64,000 nt of DNA from Flavobacterium undicola (GTDB lineage Bacteria > Bacteroidota > Bacteroidia > Flavobacteriales > Flavobacteriaceae). A model generated the notes under the pieces. The model was not told the DNA's origin, ran no database searches, and saw only the letters and a list, made by a program, of their open reading frames with translations. Location of the stretch: NCBI RefSeq assembly GCF_009909155.2, contig NZ_JAAAPM020000005.1, forward strand, positions 1-64,000, written 5' to 3'. Positions 15,462 through 45,424 of the stretch are shown here, piece by piece. Numbering within the stretch: position 1 is the stretch's first letter; every line of letters starts with the position of its first letter. The translations under genes were made by a program, and so were the position numbers.

Positions 15462-16006
15462 AATATGTTAATTCTTTAATTATAAATTATAAGAAATGAT
15501 ACCAAGGAGGTATTTAAATTTAGATTGCCAAAGTAGGATTTATTTTAGCTAAATACAAGTGCGGTATTGTATTTACAAGATTTTTCGCTCATTGACTGTC
15601 TCGTTTTTGAGATGACCTCTTTTTTTTTGATTCTTTTTTATTGTCGTTTTTGAAGTGATTTTAGGGGTCAAAACAACACTTCTTTAGGTTTCATTTTTAT
15701 AAAGAGTATTCAATAGTTTATGGTTTGTTTTTAAAAGGCTTTTGTCTAAATTATTGGGATAAAGGCTGTTTTTAAGCTATTAATATTGATATACCCCTTC
15801 TATTGTATTGTAATACCCCTCTTGTCTTTTGAGTTGTTATCTAAATTTGTAATCTAGATTTTGTCATTCCTTATTTTGTGTTGGCTGTTTTTATTTTTTG
15901 GTTAATAATTAGGATGGTCTTTTTAATGTGGTGCATTAAGCTAATTTGGAATGACAATTTTCTGTTTTGTTTTAGAATTAAAATTTAGATAATCAAAAAT
16001 AGTTAG
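15462..16006. other. Intergenic region: divergent upstream region of the dGTPase-like gene and GH2
   Basis: 545 bp with no ORF of note. The right half carries the C-tract operator and -7 box of the GH2 gene and a leader of about 150 nt. I could not find a clear consensus promoter for the dGTPase-like gene on the minus strand. Confidence 0.5.
15781..15850 (+). promoter_or_regulatory. C-tract operator and promoter, site A (GH2 gene)
   Basis: ATACCCCT at 15791-15798 and again at 15813-15820 (22 bp apart), then -7 box TAAATTTG (15842-15849) 29 bp after the second repeat start. The AATATTGAT stretch just before the first tract corresponds to the AATGCC box of the other sites. Confidence 0.7.
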
Positions 16007-19000
16007 ATGAAGAATATTGTTTTAGCACTTGCTTTGTTTTTAAGCTCACAAATTAATTTTGCTCAGACGAATGAATGGGAAAACCCTCAAATTGTAGATA
16101 GAGGAAAAGAAGCGGGTAGAAGCTCCTTTCTTTTATTTAGTAATGAAGGGGAATTGAAAGAAAATAATCCCCAAAAATCAACATTGTATCAAAGTCTGAA
16201 TGGGAATTGGAAATTCAATATTGTAAAAAATCCAACACAAAGGCCGATGGATTTTTTCGCAGCAAGTCTGGATGATACCAATTGGAAAAACATTCAAGTG
16301 CCATCCAACTGGGAACTGCAAGGTTATGATATTCCAATTTATACTAATATTACGTATCCATTTCCTAAAAATCCTCCATTTATAGGTGGCGATTATAATC
16401 CTGTGGCAACTTACAGACGTAGTTTTGCAGTGGCTGATTCTTGGAAAGACAAAGAAATTATTCTTCATTTTGCCTCTATTTCTGGCTATGCCAGAGTTTT
16501 TCTGAATGGAAAAGAGGTAGGGATGACTAAGGCTGCTAAAACTCCTGCGGAATTTAATATTACTTCTTTTTTGAAAAAAGGAGACAATTTAATTGCGGTA
16601 CAAGTATTCCGTTGGCATGATGGAAGTTATTTAGAAGATCAGGATTTTTGGAGATTAAGTGGTATCGAACGTGATGTTTATTTGCAGGCGATGCCTAAAA
16701 CTACCGTTTGGGATTATTTTGTAAAGAGTGAATTAGACGGTCAATATAAAAATGGAATTTTTAATCTTGATGTTACTTTAAAATCTTTCGAAAACAATAA
16801 AATAAAAAATCCTGCTGTAAAAGTGGAATTGTTTGACAATGAAGGAAAAGTTGTTTTTTCGGAAAGCAAAAAAGTAAGTCCAAAAGAACAAAAAATCAGC
16901 TTCGACAAAACAATTGAAAATGTAAAACAATGGAATGCCGAAACGCCTAATTTGTACCGATATACTATTACTTTGCTTGATAATAAAGGGAAAGCATTAG
17001 AGGTTATTTCTAAAAAAACAGGTTTTAGAAAAGTTGAAATCAAAGATGCCCGATTGTTAGTTAATGGTAAGGTTGTTATGGTAAAAGGGGTAAATATTCA
17101 TGAGCATGATGATGTAAATGGGCATGTGCCAAATAAGGAATTAACCATGAAAGACCTTCAGTTAATGAAGGAATATAATGTTAACGCTATTAGAATGAGT
17201 CATTATCCGCATGATACCCATATCTATGATTTGTGTGATGAATACGGTTTTTATGTAGTTGATGAAGCTAATATCGAAAGCCATGGAATGGGAGCAGAAT
17301 GGCAAAATTGGTTTGATAAAACAAAACATCCGGCGTTTTTACCGGAATGGGCGCCAGCTCATTTGGATCGTATCAAAAGAATGTTTGCAGTAGATAAGAA
17401 TCATCCTTCGATTATCATCTGGTCTTTAGGAAATGAATGTGGAAACGGTCCTGTTTTTTTTGATGCTTACGATTGGTTAAAACAAGTAGATTCTACGCGT
17501 CCGGTTCAGTTTGAACAGGCTGGGGAAAATAGTAATACCGATATTGTAGCGCCGATGTATCCGAGTATTAAGAGTATGAAAGCTTACGCCAACTCTGATA
17601 AAAAACGTCCTTATATTATGTGTGAGTATGCACACGCTATGGGGAATAGTAGTGGAAATTTCCAGGAATATTGGGATATTATCAATAGCAGTAAACTTAT
17701 GCAAGGTGGATTTATTTGGGACTGGGTTGATCAGGGAATAAAAACTAAAAATGAAAAAGGAGTAGAGTTTTGGGCTTATGGAGGCGATTTAGGAGCTGCT
17801 CATTTGCAAAATGATGAGAATGGTTGTGCTGATGGACTTATATTTTCGAACAGAACTCCAAAACCGGCATTGAATGAAGTAAAGAAAGTATATCAAAATA
17901 TTCAATTTCAGTTCAATAATGAAGCTGGTTTAGTGGTGACGAATCATTTTAATTTCACCAATCTTTCTAATTATGCCTTCAAATGGGAATTGATTAAAAA
18001 CGGATTAACAACCAAGTCAGGAGAATTTAATTTGGATGTAAATCCAGAAGAAAGTAAGAAAGTCACTTTAGATTTAGGTTCGATTGATGCGGATTCAGAA
18101 TATTTTCTAAATGTTTTTGCAGTTTCAAAATACGATACTCCTTTGGTTGCTAAAGGATATGAATTTGCCAGAGAGCAATTTGTAATAGGAAAAGGCAATT
18201 ATTTTAAAGATAATTCCATGGCTTCAAAAAGTCCGTCTAAATTGAAGTATGTGGTTAAAAACAATGTGCTTTCTTTTGAGACCGAAAGTATTACAGGTGA
18301 ATTTGATTTGAAAAAAGGCGAAATTTTAAAATATACATCGAAAAATGATGCTGATACAGTGATTTCAAATTTTCCAACGCCTTATTTCTGGCGTGCGCCA
18401 ACGGATAATGATTTTGGAAGCGGGATGCCAAATAAATTAGTAATTTGGAAAGAAGCATCAAAAAATCCAGCTGTTGTAAGTGTGAATTTGGATAAAAAAT
18501 CTTCAGAAGGTTTGCTGATAAAAGTGGCTTATCAATTAGCTCAAGCAGATGTTCCTTATACTGTAGATTATTTGATTCAAAATAATGGTTCGATAAAAGT
18601 TACTGCAGCTATTGATGTGACTGATAAAAAATTGCCTGAATTACCTCGTTTTGGGATGCGTTTAAAACTAAACGGAGCGTATGATAATTTGAGTTATTAT
18701 GGAAGAGGGCCTTGGGAAAATTATTCCGACAGAAATACGGCTGCGTTTGTTGGAACTTATTCAGATAAAGTGATGAATCAATATTCTCGAAATTATATTC
18801 GTCCTCAAGAATCAGGTTATAAAACAGATGTTCGTTGGTTAAGTTTAAAAAATGCTAAAGGACAAGGTTTGAAAATAGAAGGAATTCAGCCTATTGGTTT
18901 TAGTGCGTTGAATATTCCAATAGAGGATTTAGATCCTGGAAAGAACAAATCACAACGCCATCCATCTGATTTGGATTTGAATTCTAAAGATGCAGTTTAC

Positions 19001-19126
19001 TTGCATTTAGATTACAAACAAAGAGGTCTTGGTGGTGATGATAGTTGGGGAAGTTTGCCTCATGAGGCGTATCGATTATTAGATAAACAATACAGTTATT
19101 CTTACGTAATTTCATTAGTTAATTAA
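16007..19126 (+). CDS. GH2 beta-galactosidase (LacZ type, exported)
   Basis: 1039 residues with a signal peptide (1-19, ending INFAQ). Order: sugar-binding domain (galactose-binding fold, about 45-230), Ig-like GH2 domain, TIM barrel, DUF4981-type Ig domain and the beta-sandwich small chain (Bgal_small_N, about 750-1035), so LacZ-like rather than glucuronidase-like. The acid/base is Glu477 in SLGNECGNG and the nucleophile is Glu540 in [13 protein letters not shown]. It probably works in the periplasm, removing terminal beta-galactose from imported oligosaccharides. Single-gene unit driven by the C-tract promoter; a terminator follows. Confidence 0.93.
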
Positions 19127-19157
19127 TTTAGTGGTTTTTTGTGTGTTTCTTTAGGAG

Positions 19158-19185
19158 AACCTGTGATGTTTATTCATGGGTTTTT
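19158..19185 (+). terminator. Terminator after GH2 (16007-19126)
   Basis: 9 bp stem AACCTGTGA (19158-19166) / TCATGGGTT (19174-19182, two wobble pairs), then TTTC. Confidence 0.6.
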
Positions 19186-45030: not shown

Positions 45031-45172
45031 TTAAATTGCAAACAATAATAGGTTCAATTATAGAACTTAAATATCAGTATGGGAATTAACAAAACCCAAA
45101 TCTGATGCTGGTCAATTTTTTGCAATATGATTTCATTTGAATTAGTTGTTTAATAAATAATTTTTTTGTAAA

Positions 45173-45214
45173 AAAGACCGTTCGAAAAATTACTTTTCGG
45201 ACGGTCTTTTTTTT
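45173..45214 (+). terminator. Terminator of the susC-2 operon
   Basis: 16 bp stem 45173-45188 / 45194-45209 (AAAGACCGTTCGAAAA with its complement, one G-U pair), 5 nt loop, long T run. Confidence 0.85.
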
Positions 45215-45354
45215 TATAAAATGATTTACGATTCTATTCGTACATAGTAAAAAATCAGGGATATTTATTTAGCTGCTTTAATTTATAGTAAAAGCAGTTT
45301 TTTGATTTCGTTTGTTTTTTATGTAATGTAAAAAAATAAAGCTATTTTTTTATT

Positions 45355-45424
45355 AAATACCAATAAGACCCTTTTAATATATTGTAATTACCCCCTTTTT
45401 GCTTAAAGTGATACGTTAGATTTG
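45355..45424 (+). promoter_or_regulatory. C-tract operator and promoter, site E
   Basis: AATACCAATAA box, AAGACCCT (45365-45372), TACCCCCT (45389-45396; 24 bp apart, the same geometry as site C), and -7 box TAGATTTG (45417-45424) 28 bp after the second tract start. Confidence 0.7.

Follow-up and report, generated by a model that had tools for sequence, protein, structure and literature searches.

Five promoters of one glycan-utilization gene cluster in the window, i.e., the whole 64,000-nucleotide stretch of Flavobacterium undicola DNA analyzed here, carry the same direct-repeat site upstream of the −7 box, and this double site is found nowhere else in the genome at comparable strength. With a probability of roughly 0.86 for the mechanism as a whole, each site serves the hybrid two-component system regulator (HTCS) encoded at 19341 as a class-II activator operator, and it is most likely that one membrane-bound sugar sensor switches the five promoters together. 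HTCSs are major glycan-use switches in Bacteroidota. Recognition of the C-tracts by the AraC-type domain of this protein had been put forward in the first-pass annotation, and the reading of the site as a tandem operator for the locus HTCS is supported by its uniqueness, its co-occurrence with HTCS orthologues, its absence at the HTCS gene, the layout of paralogous loci and a precedent in Bacteroides. The features of the locus are the following:

15782–15819, plus strand: operator 1, promoter of the GH2 gene at 16007 (half-sites 15782–15797 and 15804–15819; CCC cores 15794–15796 and 15816–15818)
15842–15849, plus strand: −7 box TAAATTTG of promoter 1
19158–19187, plus strand: terminator-like hairpin with a T-run, directly 3′ of the GH2 stop, between the GH2 and HTCS genes
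19341–23441, plus strand: HTCS gene, TTG start, with Pfam matches
23139–23375, plus strand: AraC-type DNA-binding domain HTH_18 (residues 1267–1345), putative reader of the five operators
26130–26167, plus strand: operator 2 (CCC starts 26142 and 26164), promoter of the gene at 26300 for a secreted lectin-domain protein
26191–26198, plus strand: −7 box TAGATTTG of promoter 2
30788–30825, plus strand: terminator-like stem of 17 pairs just 5′ of operator 3, the longest stem of its scan
30966–31003, plus strand: operator 3 (CCC starts 30978 and 31000; the second C-run extends to 31004), promoter of susC1 at 31177
31027–31034, plus strand: −7 box TAGATTTG of promoter 3
36677–36713, plus strand: terminator-like stem of 17 pairs just 5′ of operator 4, the longest stem of its scan
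36851–36888, plus strand: operator 4 (CCC starts 36863 and 36885), promoter of susC2 at 37254
36912–36919, plus strand: −7 box TAGATTTG of promoter 4
45356–45393, plus strand: operator 5 (CCC starts 45368 and 45390), promoter of the Glyco_hydro_cc gene at 45545
45417–45424, plus strand: −7 box TAGATTTG of promoter 5

The proteins that we take to be SusC and SusD were named from their sequences.

Architecture and uniqueness of the repeated site

The first-pass annotation had described one arrangement recurring upstream of 16007, 26300, 31177, 37254 and 45545, and all five sites were found at the coordinates it gave. The operator is a direct repeat, in which a half-site of about 16 bp (about WTRYYRWWWTNMCCCY) occurs in two same-sense copies. 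The CCC cores of the two copies are 22 bp apart in all 36 sites collected from the genus, and the self-identity of the 35 gapless sites reaches its maximum at a shift of 22 (0.584), followed by a shift of 24 (0.475). Thus, of the tract spacing of 22–24 bp given earlier, the lower value stands; the value of 24 was rejected, being due to longer C-runs. Also rejected was an AATGCC-like box as an element of its own: the box belongs to half-site 1 as its 5′ portion, since it aligns at shift 22 with the 5′ portion of half-site 2.

The −7 box, taken for each site as the best match within an 18-position range, starts 25 or 26 bp 3′ of the second CCC and has the previously noted form TAnnTTTG in 34 of the 36 sites. 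According to an excerpt of PMC9723704, TAnnTTTG is the consensus at −12 to −5 in Flavobacterium psychrophilum. The reported lack of an ordinary −33 element held as well, because TTG is located 17–21 bp 5′ of the −7 box in 6 of the 36 sites, i.e., without enrichment over the 4.8 expected from shuffles. The promoter scan used a sigma-70 model, which does not fit this phylum. Judging by sequence, the promoters have a class-II-type layout, with a TAnnTTTG −7 box, an operator abutting −35 and the −33 element missing. The same missing element and the fixed distance to the start-proximal box could also be expected if the C-tracts were part of an alternative sigma-factor (ECF-like) promoter, but this is highly improbable: the box is that of the primary sigma factor (consensus in the excerpt of PMC9723704) and is complete in all but two sites, while two same-sense copies lying 22 bp apart 5′ of −35 are arranged as for an activator dimer, not as for a two-element sigma promoter.

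Within the window, each site was scored by a matrix built from the other four, which covered the 43 bp of the operator and excluded the −7 box; the four training sites were masked in this leave-one-out test. Each left-out site ranked first among 127,896 window positions and obtained 31.7–43.2 bits, compared to at most 10.3 bits elsewhere in the window. In the 4.27 Mb genome, R1, a sequence model built from the five sites, gave 62.9–76.2 bits to these sites and 16.1 bits to the sixth-best match (best 150 of 1,579 candidates). The five sites are the training set of R1, therefore the leave-one-out test matters. Strong matches in the genome-wide scan, which had been proposed as a check in the first-pass annotation, are thus confined to the five sites of the locus. 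Chance is excluded by the leave-one-out ranks and the R1 genome scan, together with the presence of the same composite sites at the same promoters in relatives. The genome scans scored the best first-look candidates, which besides those of the own genome were 15 per genome for the genus sites, two per genome for HTCSs, 11 per genome in the R1 search including G525 (a genome of another genus) and 12 per genome in the search of other genera with the generic model R2, so that a weak site, or an HTCS ranking third in its genome, may have escaped detection.

Across the genus, the operator is better conserved than its flanks. In the GH2a promoters, the mean identity of the half-site and −7 bins is 0.73–0.86 versus 0.13–0.43 in most flank bins, and in the susC1 promoters the corresponding values are 0.78–0.85 and, for the most part, 0.20–0.62. 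The ten pairs of focal sites are 55–80% identical inside the operator versus 33–55% before it. Sites 3 and 4 are 67% identical over the 60 bases 3′ of the −7 box, therefore the susCD genes and their promoter were probably copied together, and two nearly identical GH2 promoters are found in genome G293. Both observations would suit an explanation of the five copies as recent promoter duplications that have no function of their own. The other nine pairs, however, share 32–47% after the box, the contrast between the operator and the preceding sequence is seen in all ten pairs, the operator is conserved beyond its flanks across the genus, and copying accounts for growth of the regulon, not for retention of the sites; hence, duplication as the whole explanation is hardly credible.

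Genes that carry the operator

The 36 genus sites precede GH2a (15), susC1 (11), susC2 (4), the lectin-domain gene (2), Glyco_hydro_cc (1) and other genes (3), so GH2a or susC is downstream in 30 of the 36 cases. Counted by locus, GH2a has the operator in all 15 loci that were scored, susC1 in 11 of 11 and susC2 in 4 of 4 (places counted once, as one place in each of G042 and G213 is listed under both susC1 and susC2), and the lectin-domain gene has it in both loci that contain this gene. A matrix derived from the genus sites scored 37 to 59 at the sites and −11 or less elsewhere in the 450-bp upstream regions.

It had been proposed earlier that the genes that need co-induction have the operator and that the regulator gene does not. 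The latter was borne out, as no operator was found upstream of the HTCS gene in 13 loci, including one in which the HTCS is truncated. The former is true of GH2a, susC1, susC2 and the lectin-domain gene, but not of DUF2264 (0 of 7 loci) and GH88 (0 of 13), two genes located 3′ of the HTCS gene. Thus, some catabolic genes lack an operator of their own.

Before Glyco_hydro_cc, the operator was found in one of nine loci, the focal one, where operator 5 probably also serves the close-set genes behind 45545. The absence of this site in the eight other loci with a Glyco_hydro_cc gene is an observation that runs against the preferred explanation.

The hairpin at 19158–19187 is present in 13 of 13 aligned loci, its consensus fold (10 of the 13 sequences) has 12 pairs, none with a two-sided change, and it was not listed by a simple terminator scan. 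Terminator-like sites were no commoner than in shuffles in the scans that included the two 17-pair stems: the count in the operator-3 scan is not significant, because seven were found versus 7.3 expected, and the operator-4 scan had four versus 4.6.

The HTCS, its orthologues and its paralogues

Bioinformatics analysis revealed that the HTCS combines, in a single chain, a periplasmic sensor consisting of a Reg_prop propeller (PF07494) and a Y_Y_Y domain (PF07495) with HisKA (PF00512), HATPase (PF02518), a receiver (PF00072) and an AraC-type HTH_18 domain (PF12833), all of these Pfam matches being over the cut-off; this is the composition that defines the class. The nearest solved chain to the HTH part is 12aw_A, a 'hybrid two-component system protein'.

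Orthologues of this HTCS, 76–86% identical, were found in 11 other genomes, and the operator is present in 12 of the 12 orthologue genomes among 299 of the genus; in the fetched loci, the sites are located on the same stretch as the HTCS. The 287 genomes without an orthologue include four with strong sites and four with weak matches (Fisher p 2e-18, relatedness ignored). Whole-locus inheritance could by itself give this association, and the stronger arguments are that the operator is common to non-homologous genes and that it varies clade-wise. The weak R1 matches in G117, G118, G222 and G239 (20.8–22.5 bits) were not taken as real; HTH relatives at E ≤ 1e-5 number one in G117, one in G222 and two in G239. 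In G293, one R1 match of 23 bits (C6:396881) is located away from the locus. Genomes G066 (99% complete) and G162 (100%) have a good site and no close HTCS orthologue, their best HTH identities being 41% and 51%, respectively; therefore, either another HTCS reads the site or it is a relic. G031 (90% complete; HTCS cut to residues 1–114) and G074 (75%; 3.5-kb contig) are indecisive for the orthologue question.

G525 has a divergent orthologue (HTCS 59–60% identical). R1 gave no match in this genome at E ≤ 1e-4, and a lax search yielded 9.4 and 8.2 bits (E 3.2 and 7.0) before susC2 and GH2a, ranking 14th and 15th of 15, with 13 better matches elsewhere. The same two places obtained 13.0 and 15.6 bits with R2, and these matches are suggestive only.

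At the loci of paralogous HTCSs, the operator has the same architecture and different letters, with a half-site spacing of 21–22 bp as counted by eye. R2 detected a site at 24 of 25 such loci, and at 12 of the 13 loci outside its building set, which are close relatives of the loci used; for the single locus missed (L170, G060), a match lies 9 kb beyond the HTCS, outside the fetched stretch. In other genera, R2 had one partial and three full-length matches; of the latter, one follows an HTCS, one is located between an HTCS and a susC, and one precedes a GH2 gene. In the few clades compared, the operator letters appear to vary alongside the HTCS clade, and the low R1 scores at paralogous loci agree with this trend.

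Based on these data, it is unlikely that the main reader of the sites is a regulator other than the locus HTCS, i.e., a second HTCS or an AraC-type protein outside a hybrid system, controlling the locus in trans. R1 found only nine matches of 9–21 bits on 33 stretches that covered paralogous and other HTCSs as well as G525, in contrast to 28–76 bits on the 36 focal sites; moreover, the sites accompany the HTCS in all of the orthologue genomes, on the same stretch in fetched loci, and their letters appear to track the neighbouring HTCS clade. In favour of such a regulator are the 10 other Y_Y_Y-domain proteins of this genome, the sites of G066 and G162, and a half-site core that is common to the focal operators and the paralogous HTCS loci, including the one on contig C6 of this genome, which makes cross-reading conceivable. 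On the same contig, the second site (31075) corresponds to half-site 2 and the −7 box only.

A tentative and rather doubtful extension of the preferred reading, i.e., control by the locus HTCS, is that a C-tract operator class belonging to one HTCS sub-clade exists across Flavobacteriaceae, in which the helix-6 arginine would read CCC and the 5′ part of the half-site would select the clade member. Helix 6 contains FR in 38 of 38 aligned clade members (37 by script and G162 by eye) versus FS or FT in 4 of 4 other aligned HTCSs of this genome, the alignment having taken in four of its five other long HTCSs with fetched loci. If true, this would amount to a readable HTCS protein–DNA code, with which regulons could be predicted from sequence; cross-reading between the HTCSs of one cell would then be expected.

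Proposed mechanism and known systems

In the proposed mechanism, the periplasmic sensor would bind an oligosaccharide, upon which the kinase would phosphorylate the receiver. A dimer of the AraC-type domain may then bind the two same-oriented half-sites, which, at 22 bp or two helical turns, would be presented on one DNA face. If the −7 box is at −12 to −5 from the predicted start sites, the half-sites would extend approximately from −72 to −57 and from −50 to −35. The monomer on the downstream half-site would thereby occupy the −33 position, contact the primary sigma factor and replace the −33 element at a weak TAnnTTTG promoter. Within their putative transcript borders, the GH2 gene, the gene of the lectin-domain protein, both susCD operons and the last enzyme operon would be co-induced by one sensor; the HTCS gene, with DUF2264 and GH88 behind it, would have a separate promoter without the operator.

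The substrate, and with it the inducing glycan, may be type II arabinogalactan. For the GH43 protein, the nearest chain is PDB 6eug_A, which was deposited under the name 'Beta-glucanase', and there are further matches to galactan 1,3-beta-galactosidases; the GH16 protein matches laminarinases and other GH16 chains, and the Glyco_hydro_cc protein matches 6uaq. The N-terminal part of the 26300 protein gave no match outside the lectin domain.

With an operator this sharp, sequence alone suffices to define a regulon, and the versions found at paralogous loci make up a small natural data set on which HTH residues read which bases. If the mechanism is confirmed, PUL regulons of Flavobacteriaceae would become predictable, and the activator-dependent promoters of the phylum would gain a defined geometry, with a fixed −7 distance and an activator replacing the −33 element.

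In Bacteroides, HTCSs are a major regulator class, and their receiver-DBD proteins bind susCD promoters in EMSA (excerpt of PMC11253607). As described in the same excerpt, binding of the BT4124 and BT4663 receiver-DBD to the bt4114 and bt4662 promoters is phosphorylation-dependent; these are proteins of gut Bacteroides, and at the position of S or C in their inhibitory S/CHIP motif the focal clade carries K. ChIP-seq of BT0366 (excerpt of PMC3404733) located a chimera with HTCS regulatory domains on DNA at its own PUL, and also near PULs that it represses; the word 'motif' is absent from that text. Tandem HTCS sites with a mean distance of 21 bp were predicted in Bacteroides in 2013 (Ravcheev et al., PMC3878776, excerpt), and no HTCS operator outside Bacteroides is described in the titles and abstract openings among the matches listed. 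The arabinogalactan regulon of HTCS_Aga-1 (BT0267) of Bacteroides thetaiotaomicron, listed in Table 1 of PMC3878776, possibly concerns the same kind of substrate as the one presumed here.

When compared by architecture, the HTCS operators predicted for B. thetaiotaomicron and its relatives in that paper are, as here, direct repeats located before PUL operons, with two sites of 12, 14 or 16 bp in its examples. The distance of about 21 bp between their same-sense half-sites has its counterpart in the constant 22 bp of the genus sites, and the focal operators are found upstream of susC and enzyme operons in the HTCS's own locus (susC1, susC2 and GH2a). The paper also proposes that a dimer binds on one face, two turns apart, and that related HTCSs have related motifs. 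Unlike those sites, the operators described here belong to another lineage and combine an exact spacing of 22 bp with C-tract half-sites, a fixed distance of 25–26 bp to the −7 box and no −33 element.

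The composite operator and its promoter context

All five composite sites that the first-pass annotation had claimed, before genes 16007, 26300, 31177 (susC1), 37254 (susC2) and 45545, were found in place, and in a MAFFT alignment 27 of their 87 columns are invariant. When a 43-bp operator matrix was built from four sites, the one left out came first among the 127,896 window positions every time (five of five; 31.7–43.2 bits; best elsewhere in the window, 7.9–10.3). In a scan of the whole genome with R1, a covariance model that uses sequence alone and was built from the 85 positions of these composite sites, the five scored 62.9–76.2 bits and the next match only 16.1. 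Thus, random occurrence across the genome, named beforehand as grounds for rejecting the motif, is excluded by the leave-one-out ranks and the R1 scan. The observation is confirmed, with its anatomy corrected as follows.

In the 36 sites collected from the genus, the CCC cores of the two tracts are always 22 bp apart, not 22–24 bp as proposed. From the second core to the start of the TAnnTTTG-like -7 box is 25 bp in 14 sites and 26 bp in 22, and the box is complete in 34 of the 36. The reported lack of an ordinary -33 element also holds: TTG at 17–21 bp upstream of the -7 box is not enriched (6 of 36 sites vs 4.8 expected). By majority letter, the 35 gapless sites show roughly WTRYYRWWWTNMCCCY twice, and the self-identity of these sites peaks at a shift of 22; the AATGCC-like box, previously treated as a third, separate element, was therefore rejected as such and belongs to half-site 1, at its 5' end. 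If the -7 box lies at -12 to -5, as in the start-site map of Flavobacterium psychrophilum (PMC9723704), half-site 2 lies at about -50 to -35, and an activator bound there would sit just upstream of, and border on, the missing -33 element.

Pairwise identity of the five promoters is 55–80% inside the operator vs 33–55% in the 60 bases before it. In the 60 bases after the -7 box it is 32–47%, except for sites 3 and 4 (67%), which share 24 identical bases right behind the box (window 31035-31058 and 36920-36943), as would be expected if the promoter and a susCD pair had been duplicated together. In another genome (G293), two GH2 promoters are nearly identical.

Genes with and without the operator

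The polysaccharide-utilization locus encodes a GH2 (16007), the hybrid two-component system regulator (HTCS, 19341), DUF2264 and GH88 proteins, a secreted lectin-domain protein (26300; ricin-type and laminin-G), two pairs that we take to be susC/susD, additional surface proteins, and a final unit of Glyco_hydro_cc (45545), GH16, GH43, GH78 and GH2. Its likely substrate is type II arabinogalactan, because the GH43 protein is nearest to 6eug ('Beta-glucanase') and also matched galactan 1,3-beta-galactosidases.

In the 450 bp before each gene, a matrix built from these same sites scored 37 to 59 at the sites and -11 or less otherwise.

Upstream regions with an operator, by gene (GH2a, gene 16007 and its counterparts)
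GH2a: 15/15
susC1: 11/11
susC2: 4/4
lectin-domain gene: 2/2
Glyco_hydro_cc: 1/9, only in the F. undicola locus
HTCS: 0/13
DUF2264: 0/7
GH88: 0/13
GH16: 0/8
GH43: 0/11
GH78: 0/5
GH2b: 0/6

The regulator gene thus lacks the operator in all 13 loci, as first noted. In the F. undicola locus, a second susCD unit lies between Glyco_hydro_cc and susC1. The other three of the 36 sites lie before a second GH2-type gene (G293), before a stretch of G185 and before an ORF (G031).

In alignments upstream of GH2a, the half-site and -7 bins reach 0.73–0.86 identity and the spacer bins 0.52–0.57; flank bins are mostly at 0.13–0.43, with 0.57–0.66 in places near the start codon. At susC1 (bins 0.78–0.85, spacer 0.42–0.55) the contrast with the flanks is weaker, since these are mostly at 0.20–0.62, with one bin at 0.73.

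A hairpin followed by T lies between GH2a and the HTCS gene in 13 of 13 aligned loci (10 of the 13 were folded), so the regulator is probably transcribed separately from GH2a, together with the DUF2264 and GH88 genes that follow it. The HTCS gene has an apparent TTG start in 13 aligned loci, which perhaps keeps the regulator scarce.

Distribution in the genus and at related loci

The survey covered 299 genomes of the genus, sampled evenly from a larger group, and R1 matched 20 of them at E<=1e-3. An HTCS orthologue (76–86% identical) is found in 12 genomes, own included, and all 12 have sites; the remaining relatives at E<=1e-200, among those listed, are 36–40% identical. In the 287 genomes without an orthologue, sites are strong in four (G031, G074, G162, G066), with no HTH relative closer than 51%, and weak in four (20.8–22.5 bits). 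In G031, the HTCS between GH2 and GH88 is cut to residues 1-114 (L112, G031:C182), by either a deletion or an assembly error; three good operators stay on C182 and one on C523 despite the shortening. The G074 site sits on a 3.5-kb contig, and the G162 susC1 unit adjoins unrelated genes, which run to the end of the contig. The nearly complete G066 genome keeps a remnant, operator-GH2-GH88 with no HTCS in between (L115/L116, G066:C29:1-40000, 15787-20544), which offers a natural experiment on operator decay after loss of the regulator. G293, which has the orthologue, also has a 23-bit R1 match outside the contig of the locus (C6:396881-396957, minus strand); this may be a remote member of the regulon or a chance match.

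Loci of paralogous HTCS clades have the same architecture, each with its own letters: GAAATTGTCCCC...TGAATTTTTCCC in group B (11 genomes; 21 bp, spacing by eye), CAATTTTACCC...CAATTTACCCC in group A (e.g., G112) and CGAATTTAACC...TGAATTTACCCC in A2 (G218, G235; 22 bp, spacing by eye). R1 barely scores there: 33 stretches gave 9 matches at E<=1, of 9.3–21 bits. R2, a generic model trained on 18 sites drawn from several clades, detects the operator at 24 of 25 paralogous HTCS loci, including 12 of the 13 outside its training set, though these are close relatives of training loci. A second R2 match of 39.2 bits (R1, 21) lies about 11 kb from a group-B operator (L159, G079:C18, 18031-18101, minus strand).

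In the own genome, R2 gives seven matches at E<0.001: the five focal sites and two at a second locus with this operator class (L124, G000:C6:30000-49999, 1076-1128 and 9169-9238, minus strand). Six of the seven were in its training set; the seventh match comprises half-site 2 and the -7 box only. The HTCS of the C6 locus belongs to the focal sub-clade (38% identical), and cross-reading is conceivable because its half-site core is close to the focal one. At the loci of five other long HTCSs (L119–L123), R2 had no match at E<=0.05 and three of 9–12 bits in another scan.

Over 397 family genomes, R2 matches at E<=1e-4 occur in four other genera. Three are full-length: in G493 the match follows an HTCS, in G440 it falls between an HTCS and a susC, and in G452 it precedes a GH2 gene; the G595 match is partial, with no query-set gene found beside it. 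G525, of a different genus (HTCS 60% identical), has weak R1 matches before susC and GH2, and 13 better-scoring ones elsewhere.

The regulator as probable reader and comparison with known systems

As far as sequence comparison goes, there is good support for the HTCS of the locus as the reader of the five operators, the best indirect support being that paralogous clades keep the architecture with their own letters. Activator-dependent co-induction by this HTCS is the most likely mechanism. Of the HTCS domains aligned, the 38 from the focal, A, A2, B, G118, G162 and G525 loci all carry FR in the second helix-turn-helix, and the four from other own-genome HTCSs, at whose loci R2 finds nothing, carry FS or FT. 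The helix residue at this position contacts DNA in AraC-family proteins, and as a hypothesis it might form part of an HTCS–DNA code. In Bacteroides HTCSs, the S/CHIP motif keeps the DNA-binding domain inactive (PMC11253607); in the focal clade (12 orthologues and G525), K replaces its S/C. The clade also has its own C-terminal tail (NVKDNKYILNESFWKST-like) and may be regulated differently.

Direct DNA binding has been reported for other HTCSs, by EMSA of receiver-DBD proteins on susCD promoters (PMC11253607) and by ChIP-seq of the BT0366 regulatory domains (PMC3404733). Among the matches listed, titles and abstract openings of the open-access literature named no HTCS operator outside Bacteroides. 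For 16 Bacteroides HTCSs, Ravcheev et al. 2013 predicted direct repeats spaced 21 bp apart on average and proposed that dimers bind them on one face of the DNA, two turns apart (PMC3878776). The Flavobacterium operator is a site of the same kind as these repeats. The architecture was thus already foreseen in Bacteroides; its sharpness, its conservation in the genus and its clade-wise variants are added here, and together they make an HTCS–DNA code testable.
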